A stretch of 64,000 nucleotides of DNA from Sphingomonas naphthae (lineage in GTDB: Bacteria > Pseudomonadota > Alphaproteobacteria > Sphingomonadales > Sphingomonadaceae), in assembly GCF_028607085.1 (NCBI RefSeq), contig NZ_CP117411.1:3734501-3798500 (forward strand), given 5' to 3'. The notes below the pieces were generated by a model. The model had not been told where the DNA came from. It did not search any database and was given only the letters and a program-made list of their open reading frames with translations. The translations under genes and the position numbers were made by a program. Shown piece by piece: positions 8,138 through 25,804 of the stretch; positions within the stretch are counted from its first letter, which is position 1, and each line of letters starts with the position of its first letter.

Positions 8138-8185
8138 TCGGGCCGGGTTGATCGGGCCGGGCGGCCCGCCGCGTCAGGCGGCGGG
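8134..8185. repeat. Tandem 14-bp duplication and GC hairpin at converging gene ends
   Basis: The 14-mer TTGATCGGGCCGGG occurs exactly twice in tandem (8134-8147, 8148-8161). The first copy carries the TGA stop of the ThDP gene. It is followed by a stem CCCGCCGC (8165-8172) and GCGGCGGG (8178-8185) spanning the stop codon of the convergent CMD-2 gene. There is no U-tract, so it is at most a weak terminator. Confidence 0.6.
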
Positions 8186-8746
8186 CTCGCCTTCGGGCCG
8201 CACCGCGTTCAGGATCATCGCCCAGGCCGACCAGATGGCGACGACGCTGGTGAATTCGATCGCGCCCCGCTCGCCATAGGTGTCGACAACCGTGGCGAAG
8301 AGCGCGGCGGAGACGTCGCCGCTCGCCACCGCCTCGCTATATTCGATCACCAGTTTCTGTTCGGCATCGAACAGGTCGGATGTCTGCCATTCGGCCAGCA
8401 GATCCAGCTGTTCGTCGCTGATGCCCATGGCCTTCGCGATCGGGCGGCGCGTCTCGAACGAATAATCCGATCGGAAATTGATGTTGGCGGTCTGGATCGC
8501 CAGCTCGCGCAAATCGGCGCGCTTGCTCCAGCCGGCATCCACCGCGAGGAATTTGCTGAGCGCGGCCAGTTGCAGCGCGAGCCTGGGATTATAGGCCGCG
8601 ACCGCGAGCCCCAGATGCCCCTCGTCGATCCGCGGATCGGCGACGCCGGGGAAGAGCGTGGCAAACATATCGACGATCGCCGGATCGGTCGGGCCGCCAT
8701 ATTCGGACGGATAATCGGCGGGCTTGCGGACACCTTTGACGCGCAT
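8174..8746 (-). CDS. Carboxymuconolactone decarboxylase/AhpD-like protein (copy 2)
   Basis: A 190-aa helical protein related to AhpD/CMD-type peroxidase-like proteins: ADLRELAIQTANINFRSDYSFETR is the family core helix pair, with no CxxC. It has little resemblance to the copy at 5005 beyond the fold. The ATG at 8746 is preceded by GAGAGAGGA. It lies downstream of the CGSC/388-aa unit on the same strand but is separated from it by an intrinsic terminator, so it is probably transcribed on its own. Its substrate is unknown. Confidence 0.75.
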   Translation of the reverse strand: MRVKGVRKPADYPSEYGGPTDPAIVDMFATLFPGVADPRIDEGHLGLAVAAYNPRLALQLAALSKFLAVDAGWSKRADLRELAIQTANINFRSDYSFETRRPIAKAMGISDEQLDLLAEWQTSDLFDAEQKLVIEYSEAVASGDVSAALFATVVDTYGERGAIEFTSVVAIWSAWAMILNAVRPEGEPAA

Positions 8747-8801
8747 GGGGCTGGTCCTCTCTCGGTTCGGGATCGGGCGGCTTGGCGGCCGTCTCTGACG
8801 C

Positions 8802-8833
8802 AAAAACCCTCCCCCGGTTTGCCGGGAGAGGGT
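8802..8833 (-). terminator. Intrinsic terminator of the CGSC/388-aa operon
   Basis: Read on the minus strand: 12-bp arms (8822-8833 and 8806-8817, one mismatch) around a 4-nt loop, followed directly by a TTTTT run (plus-strand A run 8802-8806). It sits 36 nt past the stop codon of the 388-aa gene and isolates that operon from the CMD-2 gene. Confidence 0.8.
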
Positions 8834-8869
8834 CTGCTGTAACCCGACGATCGCGCCTCTGTCGCGGCG

Positions 8870-10036
8870 CTACTCGGCGGCGATGCTATGTTCCGCCGGG
8901 ACGATTTCTGCGACCGGCTTGGTCTGCGCCAGCGACGTGCCGAAGGTGTGGAAACCGGCGGCATGGAGCCCGCCGAGCCCACCCGCCACGAACACCAGAA
9001 TGTCCTTCGGCTCGGGCGCGGCATAGATGCGGCCGTCGGCGCGCACCCGGCCCTGCCCGGCCAGCTGGTCGCGATGCTGCGCGTTCAGGTCGTTCGCATC
9101 GACGCTGGCGAACTTCCACAACGTCTCCTGCACATCCTCGATATTCGGCATCTCGCGCGCGACGATCTCCGCGCAGATCGGGTTGATCGCGATCAGCGCC
9201 TCGCCGAACGGCACCGCGCCCGAGAAATTGTTGCAGCCGGCATAAGCATAGGATTTGCCGATCATCTCGAGGAAATCGCTGGCGCTGTGCGATGTCGTGT
9301 CGAGCACGTTCATCGTGCCCATCGTGCCGAACGAGGTGACGGCATTGCCGCTGACCCCGCGCCGTTCGCCGAGCGGCGCCCAGGGGGATTTCTCCTCCCA
9401 TTCGCCGGTGACGATGCCGGCGACACGCCCCGGCGAGCCGAACGTCGTCTGCGAGGTCACCCCCGCGACCTGCCCCGCGACGTTGCGCATGATGAGCCGG
9501 ATCGCCCGGCCGATCGGCGCAGACACACCCGGCACGCCACCCAGGCAGCCATAGCTGTAAGGGATATCCAGCGCCTGCCGGATCGGCCCGTTCACCACGA
9601 AGGCCGGATAGACCGACGCGGTCGTGGCGTTGACGCCGTACAGCTCGAAATCGGGATCGGCGATCGACGAGATCATCGCGATCAGCAGTTCCAGCGATTC
9701 CGCCGGCGCGCCCGCCATCACCGCGTTGATGACGATCTTCTCGACCGTGCATTCGACGTTGCCGGGCATCATCCCGATCACCTCGTCGGGATAGCGATCA
9801 TTCTCCGACAGGAAGGTGCGGACCCGCGCGTCGGTCGGCGGGATCAGCGGCAGGCCGTCGCCCCAGCCCATTTCCAGCGAGAAGCGGGTGAAGGCCTCGA
9901 CATCCAGCTCCGCCTCGACCCGGCGGCTGGCGAGCCAGTCGACCTCGCAGCCCTCCGGCCCGCAATCGCGGCTGACGAGCGGCTTGGGGGCGGGCGCGAT
10001 GCGGTTGCGGCCGGGGCGGATCAGCTCGATCGTCAT
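8870..10036 (-). CDS. Conserved 388-aa protein coupled to the CGSC-motif protein; function unknown
   Basis: I cannot assign a function. The protein is soluble, with no signal peptide. It has an N-terminal cysteine pair C25/C30 (DCGPEGCEVDW) and glycine-rich conserved-looking blocks such as GMMPGNVECTVEKIVINAVMAGA and GCLGGVPGVSAPIGRAIRLI. It starts inside the stop codon of the CGSC gene (ATGA overlap), indicating translational coupling and probably a shared complex or pathway. The terminal helix region ends AEHSIAAE. The cysteine pair suggests thiol or metal chemistry, but that is inference. Confidence 0.8.
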   Translation of the reverse strand: MTIELIRPGRNRIAPAPKPLVSRDCGPEGCEVDWLASRRVEAELDVEAFTRFSLEMGWGDGLPLIPPTDARVRTFLSENDRYPDEVIGMMPGNVECTVEKIVINAVMAGAPAESLELLIAMISSIADPDFELYGVNATTASVYPAFVVNGPIRQALDIPYSYGCLGGVPGVSAPIGRAIRLIMRNVAGQVAGVTSQTTFGSPGRVAGIVTGEWEEKSPWAPLGERRGVSGNAVTSFGTMGTMNVLDTTSHSASDFLEMIGKSYAYAGCNNFSGAVPFGEALIAINPICAEIVAREMPNIEDVQETLWKFASVDANDLNAQHRDQLAGQGRVRADGRIYAAPEPKDILVFVAGGLGGLHAAGFHTFGTSLAQTKPVAEIVPAEHSIAAE

Positions 10037-10593
10037 GCCGCCTGCTCCCGCGCGGTCAGGCTCGCGCCCATCGTCTGGAGGACGGGCAGGAAATGCGCCT
10101 CGCCGATCGGCAGCACATCTTCCTTCAACTGCTCGTTGAGCGGATAGGGCAGGACGTGGACGCGCAGGCCCGAACGGCCGCCGCGCGCCGCGATCTCATG
10201 CGCGAAGGTCTCGAAATTGGCGGTGGCAATGGCGGTCGTCGGCAGGCCGGTGTTGGCCGCCGTGATCGCGTCGCGCACCGTCCAGCCGGTGCAGGAGCCG
10301 CAATTGGCGAGGCCGACGACGGCCACGTCGATCGATTCCAGAAACGCCTTATATTCGCGTTCGCACCGCTCGCCCTCGTCGCCCGAGCGGCCGGCGGAGC
10401 GCCAGAAGGAGACTTCGGCGCCGGCCTCGCGGAATTTCTCCGCCCAAAGCTCGCTGATCCAGTCCCACGCGCGCCACATGCGATCGACGCGGAAGCCCAC
10501 GCGCTTACCGATCAGCGAGCCCGCGTCGGGGCCGGGGCTGGTAATGTCGTCCGCGCGTCGCGCGGTCGGGTCGAGGACGAAACCGGTCGCCAT
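10033..10593 (-). CDS. UGSC-family protein, cysteine form (CGSC motif)
   Basis: A 186-aa protein. The sequence GLANCGSCTGWT (C98-G-S-C101) matches the redox motif of the UGSC selenoprotein family, with cysteine in place of selenocysteine. The motif follows a predicted strand (DVAVVGLA) as in a redox or nucleophilic active site. The known family has no firmly established reaction. The start at 10593 has a perfect AGGAGG, so the longer frame to 10827 is rejected. It is the first gene of a two-gene, 4-bp-overlapping operon and diverges from a LysR regulator. Confidence 0.75.
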   Translation of the reverse strand: MATGFVLDPTARRADDITSPGPDAGSLIGKRVGFRVDRMWRAWDWISELWAEKFREAGAEVSFWRSAGRSGDEGERCEREYKAFLESIDVAVVGLANCGSCTGWTVRDAITAANTGLPTTAIATANFETFAHEIAARGGRSGLRVHVLPYPLNEQLKEDVLPIGEAHFLPVLQTMGASLTAREQAA

Positions 10594-10800: not shown

Positions 10801-11712
10801 ATGCTCCATCTGCGCAGCCTCACCCACCTCGTCACCCTCGCCGAACGGCTGAACTTCGCGCGGGCGGCGGAGGATCTGGGCCTGTCGCAGTCGGCGCTCA
10901 GCCGGTCGATCCAGGCGCTGGAGCGGCAGCTCGGCATGACCCTGTTCGATCGCGACCGATCGGGCGTGGCGCTGACCCCACAGGGCGCCCGCGCGGTGGC
11001 GCGCGCCGCGATCCTGCTGGCCGATGCCGAGGATTGCGAGCGCGAACTGACGCTCAACGCCAGCGCCGATGCGGGGCGGGTGCGCTTCGGCATGGCGCCG
11101 ATGCCCGCCCGCGCCCTGCTGCCCGCCGTCGTCGCCGAACGGCTGCGCGTCGCGCCCGAGGCGGTCAACGAAGTGGTGGTGCGCGACGGTGACGCCCTGT
11201 GGGCGCTGCTATTGACCGGCGAGATCGAATTCTTCGTCTGCAACGAGGGTTTCGCCTTCGATACGCCCACGCCGCGCGTCGAGCGGCTCGGCCTGTTTCC
11301 ACTGAGCGCCATCGTGCGCGCCGGCCATCCGCTGCTGCACGGCGACTGCCCCGGCGCGACCTTCCCGGTGCTGCGATCGAGCTGGACCGGCGTGCCGCTG
11401 CCGCGCGAGATCGGCGAGCGGATGGAGTGCGCGCCCAACGTGATCGAGGATTTCGGCTCGCTTGCCGCGATCACCGCCGCCTCGGACGCGATCTGGTTCT
11501 CCTCCTCCTACGCCGCGCTGCCGGAACTGGCGGACGGATCGCTGTGCCAGCTGCCCCATCGCGAGCCGCGCCATGTCGGCGTATCCCTCTATTCGCTCGA
11601 GCGCCGCTCGCCCTCGCCGCTGGCCCGCTCGCTCAAGCAATTGCTGCGCGCCCGCATCCGCGCGCTCACACGGGCGCAGGATGGCGAAGCGGTGGCGGCA
11701 TCGCCGGTGTGA
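10801..11712 (+). CDS. LysR-family transcriptional regulator
   Basis: A 303-aa LTTR. The N-terminal winged helix-turn-helix (about 1-60) contains the signature NFARAAEDLGLSQSALSRSI followed by the linker helix. A periplasmic-binding-protein-like effector domain follows (about 90-295). The effector is probably a small organic acid or CoA-pathway intermediate (inference). It is divergent from the CGSC/388-aa operon, its most likely target, and is followed 77 bp downstream by the MaoC gene on the same strand, which it may also control. Confidence 0.93.
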   Translation: MLHLRSLTHLVTLAERLNFARAAEDLGLSQSALSRSIQALERQLGMTLFDRDRSGVALTPQGARAVARAAILLADAEDCERELTLNASADAGRVRFGMAPMPARALLPAVVAERLRVAPEAVNEVVVRDGDALWALLLTGEIEFFVCNEGFAFDTPTPRVERLGLFPLSAIVRAGHPLLHGDCPGATFPVLRSSWTGVPLPREIGERMECAPNVIEDFGSLAAITAASDAIWFSSSYAALPELADGSLCQLPHREPRHVGVSLYSLERRSPSPLARSLKQLLRARIRALTRAQDGEAVAASPV

Positions 11713-23519: not shown

Positions 23520-23532
23520 GGCGTACCATGTG

Positions 23533-24285
23533 ATGCAGATACTTCCCCTCACGCAGATCGGCGAAGTCGGGCCCGGCGATGACCTCGCCGCGCTGATGAT
23601 CGCCGCGCTCGACGCCGAAGGCATCGTGCCCGCCGCCGGCGACGTCCTCGTCGTGACGCAGAAAATCGTCTCCAAGGCGGAGGGCCGTGCGGTCGATCTC
23701 GCCACGATCCTGCCGGGCGCGCGCGCGATCGAGCTGGCGGCGATCACCCGCAAGCATCCGCCGCTGATCGAACTGGTGCTGCGCGAATCCACCGATGTGC
23801 TGCGCGCCGTGCCGCACGTCCTCATCACCCGCCACCGCACCGGCCATGTCATGGCCAATGCCGGTATCGACCGGTCGAACATCGGCCCCGACGGCGCCGA
23901 TCTCGCGCTGCTGCTGCCGGAGGACGCCGACGTCTCCGCCGAGGCGCTGGGCGCGCGCCTGTCGGATCATTATGGCTGCCCGATCGCGATCGTCGTGTCC
24001 GACAGTTTCGGCCGGCCGTGGCGCTACGGTGTGGTCAATGTCGCGATCGGGGCGAGCGGCCTGCCGGCCTTGCTCGACCGGCGTGGTCTGCCCGATCGCG
24101 ACGGACGCCCGCTGGAGGTGACGCAGATCGCGGTGGGCGACATGATCGCCACCGCCGCCGGCCTCGTGATGGGCGAGGGCGGCGAGGGCATCCCCGCCGC
24201 CGTCGTCCGGGGCTATAGCTGGTCCGCACCCGCCCGCCCGGCCGCCGCGCTGGTCCGCGCGCTCGCAGAGGATCTGTTCCGATGA
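23533..24285 (+). CDS. cofE: Coenzyme F420-0:L-glutamate ligase CofE
   Basis: A 250-aa single-domain CofE that adds the gamma-glutamyl tail to F420-0 with GTP. The family core VVSDSFGRPWRYGVVNVAIGASGL is present, and the C-terminal nitroreductase-like domain of mycobacterial FbiB is absent. The N-terminal VVTQKIVSKAEGR segment is also typical. ATG 23533 (or GTG 23530) has no clear Shine-Dalgarno, and a strong hairpin lies just upstream. It overlaps cofD by 4 bp. F420 is a deazaflavin hydride carrier, best known from actinobacteria and methanogens and patchy in proteobacteria. Confidence 0.92.
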   Translation: MQILPLTQIGEVGPGDDLAALMIAALDAEGIVPAAGDVLVVTQKIVSKAEGRAVDLATILPGARAIELAAITRKHPPLIELVLRESTDVLRAVPHVLITRHRTGHVMANAGIDRSNIGPDGADLALLLPEDADVSAEALGARLSDHYGCPIAIVVSDSFGRPWRYGVVNVAIGASGLPALLDRRGLPDRDGRPLEVTQIAVGDMIATAAGLVMGEGGEGIPAAVVRGYSWSAPARPAAALVRALAEDLFR

Positions 24286-25211
24286 GCAAGGTCGTGCTGC
24301 TGACCGGCGGCGTGGGCGGCGCCAAGCTGGCGCTCGGGCTGGAGGCGGTGCTGGACCCCGCCGACCTGACTTCGATCGTCAACACCGGCGACGATTTCGT
24401 CCACCTCGGCCTCGCGATCTCGCCCGATATCGACACATTGGCCTACACCCTCTCGGGCAAGGCGAGCGTCGCCAACGGCTGGGGCCGCGAGGACGAAAGC
24501 TGGGCGTTCATGGCCACCCTGCGCGAGCTGGGCGGCGAGGACTGGTTCCTGCTCGGTGACCGCGATCTCGCGCTCCACACCATCCGCACCGGGGCGCTCA
24601 AGCGCGGCGAAAGCCTCAGCGCGATCACCGCGCGCCTCGCTAGGGCGCTCGGCGTGCGATCGGCGATCGTGCCGATGAGCGACCACATCGTGTCGACCTT
24701 CGTCGATACCGACGAGGGGCCGCTCGCCTTCCAACGCTATTTCGTCGAGCGGCGCTGCGCCCCCGCCGTCCACGCCATCCGCTTCGAGGGGGCAGCCGCC
24801 GCGCGCCCGGCCCCGGCGGCGCTGGCCGCGCTGGCCGATCCGTCGCTGCGCGCTATCCTGATCGCGCCCTCCAACCCCTTCCTCAGCGTCGATCCGATCC
24901 TCGCCGTGCCGGGCTTCGCCAAGGCGCTGCGCGCGGCCAAGGCCCCGATCGTCGCCGTCTCCCCGCTGGTCGATGGCAAGGCGGTGAAGGGGCCGACGTC
25001 CAAGCTGATGGCCGAACTGGCCATCGCCGCCAGCCATGCCAGCATCGCAGCCCATTATGACGGCATCATCGATGGCCTGCTGATCGACCGGCCCGACGCC
25101 GGCGCGCCGCTGTCGATCGCCTTCGCCGAAACCGACACGATGATGGTGAGCGCCGCCGACAAGGCGCGCGTCGCCCGCGCCGCGCTCGCGCTGGCCGACA
25201 GCCTGGCATGA
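24282..25211 (+). CDS. cofD: 2-phospho-L-lactate transferase CofD
   Basis: A 309-aa CofD that joins the lactyl (or related 3-carbon) phosphodiester to FO, giving F420-0 or its precursor. Family motifs: N-terminal LLTGGVGGAKLALGL, NTGDDF, HLGLAISPDIDTLAY, and C-terminal PSNPFLSVDPIL. Length matches the family. The start overlaps the cofE stop (ATGA) and its stop overlaps the cofC start, so the three are translationally coupled. The FO synthase genes (cofG/cofH or fbiC) needed for the acceptor are not in this window. Confidence 0.95.
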   Translation: MSKVVLLTGGVGGAKLALGLEAVLDPADLTSIVNTGDDFVHLGLAISPDIDTLAYTLSGKASVANGWGREDESWAFMATLRELGGEDWFLLGDRDLALHTIRTGALKRGESLSAITARLARALGVRSAIVPMSDHIVSTFVDTDEGPLAFQRYFVERRCAPAVHAIRFEGAAAARPAPAALAALADPSLRAILIAPSNPFLSVDPILAVPGFAKALRAAKAPIVAVSPLVDGKAVKGPTSKLMAELAIAASHASIAAHYDGIIDGLLIDRPDAGAPLSIAFAETDTMMVSAADKARVARAALALADSLA

Positions 25212-25804
25212 GCTGGCAGGTCGTCATCCCGCTCAAGCGCGCCGGCGATCGCAAGCAGCGGCTGGCGCCACATTTCTCGCCCGCCGCGCGCCACGCATTG
25301 AGCGAGGCGCTGTTCGATCATGTCGTGGATACCGTCGCGCGGGTCGGCCGGATCGGCGGCGTGCATGTTTTGTCGCCGGGCGCGCCGACGCGGCCCTCGC
25401 TCGGCTGGCTGTGCGACGGGGGACGCGGGCTGAACCCCGAACTGGCCGCCGCCTGCGTGCTGCTGGCACCGGCCGACATCCTGATCCTCCACGCCGATCT
25501 GCCGCTGCTCGCCCCCGCCGATCTCGAGGCGCTGATCGACGCTGGCGTGCGCCATGGCTGCGCCATCGCGCCCGACCGGCACGGTGCCGGCACCAACGCC
25601 ATCGCGCTTACCGCCGGCCGCACTCTGCCGTTCCGCTTCGGGCCAGGCAGCCTGCGCCGCCATCTCGCCGCCGCCGACGGCCGGGCCGAACGGGTCGAGC
25701 GGCCGGGCCTCGCGCTCGATTGCGACACGCCCGACGATATCGCGGTCGCCGCCCGGTCGGGCTTCCGCTGGCCGATCGCGGCCGATACCCACCGCGCCGC
25801 CTGA
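25208..25804 (+). CDS. cofC: Phospholactate guanylyltransferase CofC
   Basis: A 198-aa nucleotidyltransferase that activates 2-phospholactate, or phosphoenolpyruvate/3-phosphoglycerate in some bacteria, with GTP for CofD. Visible motifs: IPLKRAGDRKQRLAPHFS (nucleotide loop), GRGLNPEL, HADLPLL, PDRHGAGTNAIAL and FGPGSLRRH, ending LDCDTPDDI. All are typical for CofC. The substrate among the three acids cannot be told from sequence by eye. It is third in the coupled cofEDC set; tetR follows 41 bp downstream. Confidence 0.93.
   Translation: MSWQVVIPLKRAGDRKQRLAPHFSPAARHALSEALFDHVVDTVARVGRIGGVHVLSPGAPTRPSLGWLCDGGRGLNPELAAACVLLAPADILILHADLPLLAPADLEALIDAGVRHGCAIAPDRHGAGTNAIALTAGRTLPFRFGPGSLRRHLAAADGRAERVERPGLALDCDTPDDIAVAARSGFRWPIAADTHRAA

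Follow-up and report, generated by a model that had tools for sequence, protein, structure and literature searches.

A two-gene unit of Sphingomonas naphthae joins a cysteine-form protein of the UGSC family to a 388-aa partner of no described family, and across genomes the pairing of these two families is nearly obligate. Our main reading, held at a probability of about 45%, is that the two proteins make up a two-subunit, thioredoxin-recycled Cys/Sec reductase that would act in carboxylate catabolism. The complex and the redox role of the pair rest on genome evidence, and attack on a carboxylate followed by reductive cleavage is suggested by selenoprotein B chemistry and by the neighboring genes. 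In the portion of the 2008 study that bears on it (PMC2398784), UGSC is among the most abundant selenoprotein families of aquatic metagenomes; a literature search for a function of the family, or for SAR202 selenoproteins, found none. The near-obligate partner, the predicted fold and the probable electron donor make a defined candidate enzyme, fit for purification and assay, of a family that has been without a function since 2008.

The two-gene unit and its surroundings

The window, by which we mean the whole stretch of 64,000 nucleotides that was analyzed, carries the partner gene (8870..10036) and the UGSC gene (10033..10593) on its minus strand. Both frames are where the preliminary description placed them, and they share the four bases ATGA (10033..10036, minus strand), a stop/start overlap that provides for translational coupling and is of a type found in 23 separate-gene pairs elsewhere. 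The unit is isolated between its own terminator and a LysR gene. The intrinsic terminator, at about 8800..8837 (minus strand), consists of a 13-pair stem followed by U5 (-29.1 kcal/mol, z -4.2) and was missed by a consensus terminator scanner. The divergent LysR-type gene (10801..11712, plus strand; HTH_1 6e-20, LysR_substrate 8e-15) encodes the likely regulator of the unit; a LysR protein 60% identical to it is divergent from the pair in locus L010. A promoter scan gave no match, and neither did Rfam over the whole window.

Terminator, divergent regulator and degradation locus had all been proposed from the letters alone, and all are real. Pfam matches around the pair comprise Rieske oxygenases, a flavin monooxygenase, an AMP ligase, MaoC, a CoA transferase, an SDR, a TPP enzyme and CMD-like proteins. 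Rieske oxygenases and CMD proteins had also been named as companions of the pair to look for; neither stood out across the family, and for this reason they look like context of the window locus, outside the unit. One of the CMD/AhpD-like proteins (8174-8746, minus strand) lacks cysteines, shares 54% identity with a protein encoded close to the pair in L010 and has a weak NCBIfam match to "YciW-related (seleno)protein". Three consecutive Pfam-identified genes for coenzyme F420 biosynthesis, namely CofE (F420 ligase), CofD and CofC (23530-25804, plus strand), adjoin the degradation cluster.

The UGSC protein and its predicted fold

The 186-aa protein matches PF24696 at 103.3 bits (E 2.1e-29; gathering cut-off 25 bits) over profile positions 2-158 of 172. 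It also matches NF041046 (NCBIfam) at 60.8 bits, below the equivalog cut-off of 125 bits. On these profile matches it is a Cys-form member of the UGSC family, as the preliminary description had supposed from the motif. That motif, C98 G99 S100 C101, is encoded at 10291..10302 (minus strand); C98, G99 and C101 are invariant in all 69 aligned sequences, and S100 is kept in 63.

An AlphaFold2 model of the protein, built with its 69 relatives (pLDDT 94.8), has five strands alternating with helices; CGSC opens the helix that follows strand 3. Among solved structures the closest folds are flavodoxin/Rossmann-like (Foldseek, VIA), and we describe the domain as flavodoxin-like by prediction. Folds of this kind are generic; the top VIA rows (MilB, DNPH1 and an MCR-activation protein) are closely spaced, and we did not read them as homology.

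A thioredoxin fold for UGSC was suggested in 2008, as the relevant portion of PMC2398784 has it, and the CxxC motif and the membership in a selenoprotein family would suit a thioredoxin-fold oxidoreductase. In such a fold, however, CxxC opens the first core helix, whereas the predicted model alternates strand and helix and has the motif after the third strand. The near-obligate partner, the tens to more than 100 divergent paralogues in one genome and the catabolic operons also argue against this assignment, which we regard as very improbable.

The partner protein

The 388-aa partner has no relative in Pfam, NCBIfam or PDB sequences, and 90 of its relatives, scanned as a set or as a profile, gave no match in Pfam, NCBIfam or PDB sequences either. 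Profile comparison found no relation between partner and UGSC, nor did a comparison half against half. Invariant positions are D60, G61, P63, P67, A108, G109, G150, P151, G176, R177, E212 and W219, and the conserved polar set consists of D60, N104, T138, T139, R177, N185, E212 and E214. The alignment contains no invariant Cys or Lys that could serve for a pyruvoyl group or a Schiff base. A special role had been proposed for the cysteine pair C25/C30; this does not hold, since the pair is limited to the window protein and eight close relatives (L010, L011 and L017-L022) and is absent from the rest of the family, and we rejected it as a family-wide active site.

Pairing of the two families across genomes

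Recurrent pairing with the 388-aa family had been anticipated, and the survey returned something stronger: a near-obligate association at a ratio of about 1:1, sometimes as a fusion. Seven of 199 genomes of the host's family carry the partner, and all seven have a UGSC domain adjacent or fused to it. At the level of the phylum (398 genomes), the identical five genomes hold both genes, which has a chance probability of about 1e-9. Copy numbers over 20 genomes amount to 272 versus 264 members and are correlated with r 0.999.

A contig scan confirmed at least 570 relatives, the best 80 of which were used as named loci. The taxa, among the matches listed, are Chloroflexota, Alpha-, Beta-, Gamma- and Deltaproteobacteria, Actinomycetota, Rokubacteria, Methylomirabilota, Bacillus and archaea. 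Of the best 80 loci (of at least 570), 73 have a UGSC domain that is fused to the partner or lies no more than 500 nt away. The domain is present at a greater distance in L051, L057 and L061, and L043 begins at the partner, so that its upstream sequence falls outside the view. Three of the 80 (L030, L036 and L078) have the partner with no detectable UGSC, which counts against our main reading. The two genes are found in either order, and fusions make up 21 of the 107 pairs tabulated. One contig, L034, is titled "Bordetella parapertussis isolate TH-08apr19-38"; it is a MAG whose UGSC gene groups with betaproteobacterial MAGs, and the species label looks doubtful.

Co-occurrence, coupling, 1:1 copy number and, in some lineages, fusion are our reasons for proposing one two-subunit enzyme. 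The model of a natural fusion (L029; pLDDT 95.2, pTM 0.94) is consistent with a fixed arrangement of both parts. Fold searches with this model gave matches that cover the UGSC part only, so the partner fold was barely probed.

Selenocysteine and cysteine forms

Most relatives have TGA, for selenocysteine, at the first motif position. Exactly one in-frame TGA is present in 81 of 98 UGSC genes and none in 16. The folding energy directly behind the TGA is below expectation (z -1.79, n=82), in comparison with z -0.26 at 150 nt upstream and z -0.27 for Cys homologues. A tree of 99 UGSC domains requires at least six Sec/Cys switches, with the motif kept throughout. Taken together, the invariant motif, these switches and the hairpin signal behind the TGA suggest that UxxC/CxxC is catalytic. 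In the tree the window protein belongs to a clade of Cys forms from Sphingomonadaceae and close relatives, beside Sec forms of Acidimicrobiia and Myxococcota. Its gene has no in-frame TGA and its genome has no SelA, so it is not itself a selenoprotein. As the Cys form needs no selenocysteine, it is a convenient first target for assay.

Paralogue expansion

The Chloroflexi MAG NC_groundwater_644 (JACPQD01; G583), at 5.0 Mb, encodes at least 150 UGSC-domain genes (its loci are L032, L033, L036, L037, L046 and L126-L155). Among 150 UGSC matches scored, 143 contain one in-frame TGA, three contain two and four contain none. In a sample of 30 of these genes the TGA stands at the motif in every one, the median identity is 37% (maximum 74%), and the partner lies inside the 1.5-kb flank in 27. 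This MAG has one copy each of SelA and ribosomal S9, an observation that speaks against mixed bins without excluding them. In a betaproteobacterial MAG (G597) the counts are 62 partners and 58 UGSC genes.

The largest bacterial selenoproteome on record comprises 63 genes, all families counted (2026 review, PMC13188914); the UGSC genes of NC_groundwater_644 alone exceed twice that number. Such an expansion points to a large, still unexplored set of enzymes for the breakdown of organic carboxylates. A broader proposal, which we offer as doubtful and with clearly less weight than the main reading, is that UGSC and its partner represent a new, thioredoxin-dependent superfamily of (seleno)reductases with two subunits, each built from a selenoprotein B relative and an unrelated substrate subunit. 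These would have diversified on many organic carboxylates, and the approximately 150 paralogues of some groundwater Chloroflexota would form the largest known bacterial selenoproteome.

Probable thioredoxin link, neighboring genes and proposed function

Genes for thioredoxin reductase or TrxB-like proteins occur near the pair in several genomes. The Arthrobacter ERGS1:01 plasmid has an operon trxB-trxA-partner-UGSC, and the Roseovarius THAF8 plasmid has partner-UGSC-trxB. On the Variovorax SRS16 plasmid trxB lies three genes upstream of the partner, a V. boronicumulans plasmid has a TrxB-like flavoprotein near a UGSC-partner fusion, and L016 has a TrxB-like stretch near the pair. Such genes are found in four of 13 plasmid loci read, versus about 0.08 expected if two TrxB-type genes per 4000 are assumed; the loci were not picked for TrxB. 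On this evidence we propose that UGSC is recycled by thioredoxin, the probable electron donor of the pair. Against the reductase reading, TrxB or TrxB-like genes were found near the pair in only five of roughly 110 loci, and the window has no TrxB near the pair.

The recurrent neighbors across the family are TctC receptors, CoA transferases, enoyl-CoA hydratases, MmgE/PrpD and DUF6282. TctC, CoA transferase, MmgE/PrpD and enoyl-CoA hydratase point to carboxylate catabolism. A DUF6282 gene is close to the pair in L049, L157, L165, L039 and L087, from haloarchaea and Chloroflexota.

In the mechanism that we propose for the thioredoxin-recycled reductase, the partner would bind and activate a small carboxylate-type substrate. 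The first Cys of UGSC (Sec in relatives), as thiolate or selenolate, would attack this substrate and bring about reductive bond cleavage, and the second Cys would resolve the adduct to a disulfide or selenosulfide. Thioredoxin and thioredoxin reductase would then re-reduce UGSC in a manner similar to that of glycine and D-proline reductase, and the product would enter CoA-dependent catabolism.

The same neighborhood would also suit a covalent acyl/alkyl transfer enzyme, in which the thiol or selenol accepts a group from the substrate and delivers it to an acceptor such as CoA. CoA transferases, enoyl-CoA hydratases and thiolases are nearby, and glycine reductase itself passes through acyl/alkyl-type adducts. 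No CoA-binding signature was recognized, however, and the CxxC spacing suits disulfide formation, so that we hold transfer chemistry to be improbable.

Distant fused homologues in Sporomusa termitida (L160:7323-9047) and Vibrio europaeus (L164:5386-7071) have MGTS in place of CGSC and lie near aconitase X and DUF126 genes. Because they have MGTS, the fold can serve without a redox pair, which counts against the reductase reading, and part of the family may be doing something else. These Cys-less proteins near aconitase X, the carboxylate-catabolism enzymes beside the pair and the partner's invariant Arg and acids, which suit carboxylate chemistry, would all fit a non-redox isomerase, racemase, lyase or dehydratase of carboxylates; Cys or Sec would then serve in acid/base catalysis or as a covalent nucleophile, with a structural role for the second Cys. 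The invariance of that second Cys, the heavy use of Sec and the thioredoxin reductase operons speak against this, and we consider non-redox catalysis unlikely, if the most plausible of the alternatives to the two-subunit reductase.

Comparison with known systems

The nearest candidate relative of UGSC is selenoprotein B. GrdB-family proteins co-occur with UGSC in nine of 14 genomes, and some UGSC genomes contain GrdE/GrdB-like pairs together with half-length, mostly Sec-bearing GrdB-family proteins (L110, L111, L119 and L112-L118). Comparison of the UGSC profile with the Sec half of the GrdB family (hhalign) gave 93.5% (E 2e-7) with Sec aligned on Sec, versus at most 0.6% for 20 column shuffles, 0.5% for the reversed profile and at most 30.3% for 14 unrelated families; because the common CxxC motif adds to the score, we take the relation to the Sec-bearing half as a good lead, not as proof of homology. 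PF07355 is absent among Pfam matches of the window protein to E 1.

Like UGSC, the Sec half of GrdB/PrdB (PF07355), from glycine, betaine and D-proline reductase, has a Sec/Cys-x-x-Cys motif behind a beta strand, and next come a helix and then a GIPTV-type strand. The N-terminal half of GrdB/PrdB is missing from UGSC. GrdE, the substrate subunit of glycine reductase, is unrelated to the partner by sequence (hhalign against two GrdE-like proteins, 0.2%); this difference counts against the reductase reading, and so does the fact that no Cys or Lys suited to a pyruvoyl group or Schiff base is invariant in the partner. Set beside the UGSC family of PF24696 and NF041046, the window protein is alike in its whole-domain match, its CGSC motif and its length, and differs in having Cys for Sec and in scoring under the NF041046 equivalog cut-off.

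Both the family and its fusion to an unknown domain have been known since 2008. The UGSC/Unknown_1 fusion of the Global Ocean Sampling set (PMC2398784) joins a UGSC domain to a second domain that is probably the window's partner family; the part of that paper concerned with it treats it as one fusion among others and does not describe obligate pairing, copy number, fold or a thioredoxin link. To this the present analysis adds the nearly obligate subunit, the possible GrdB-like relation, the probable link to thioredoxin and, in one Chloroflexota MAG, at least 143 single-TGA UGSC genes.
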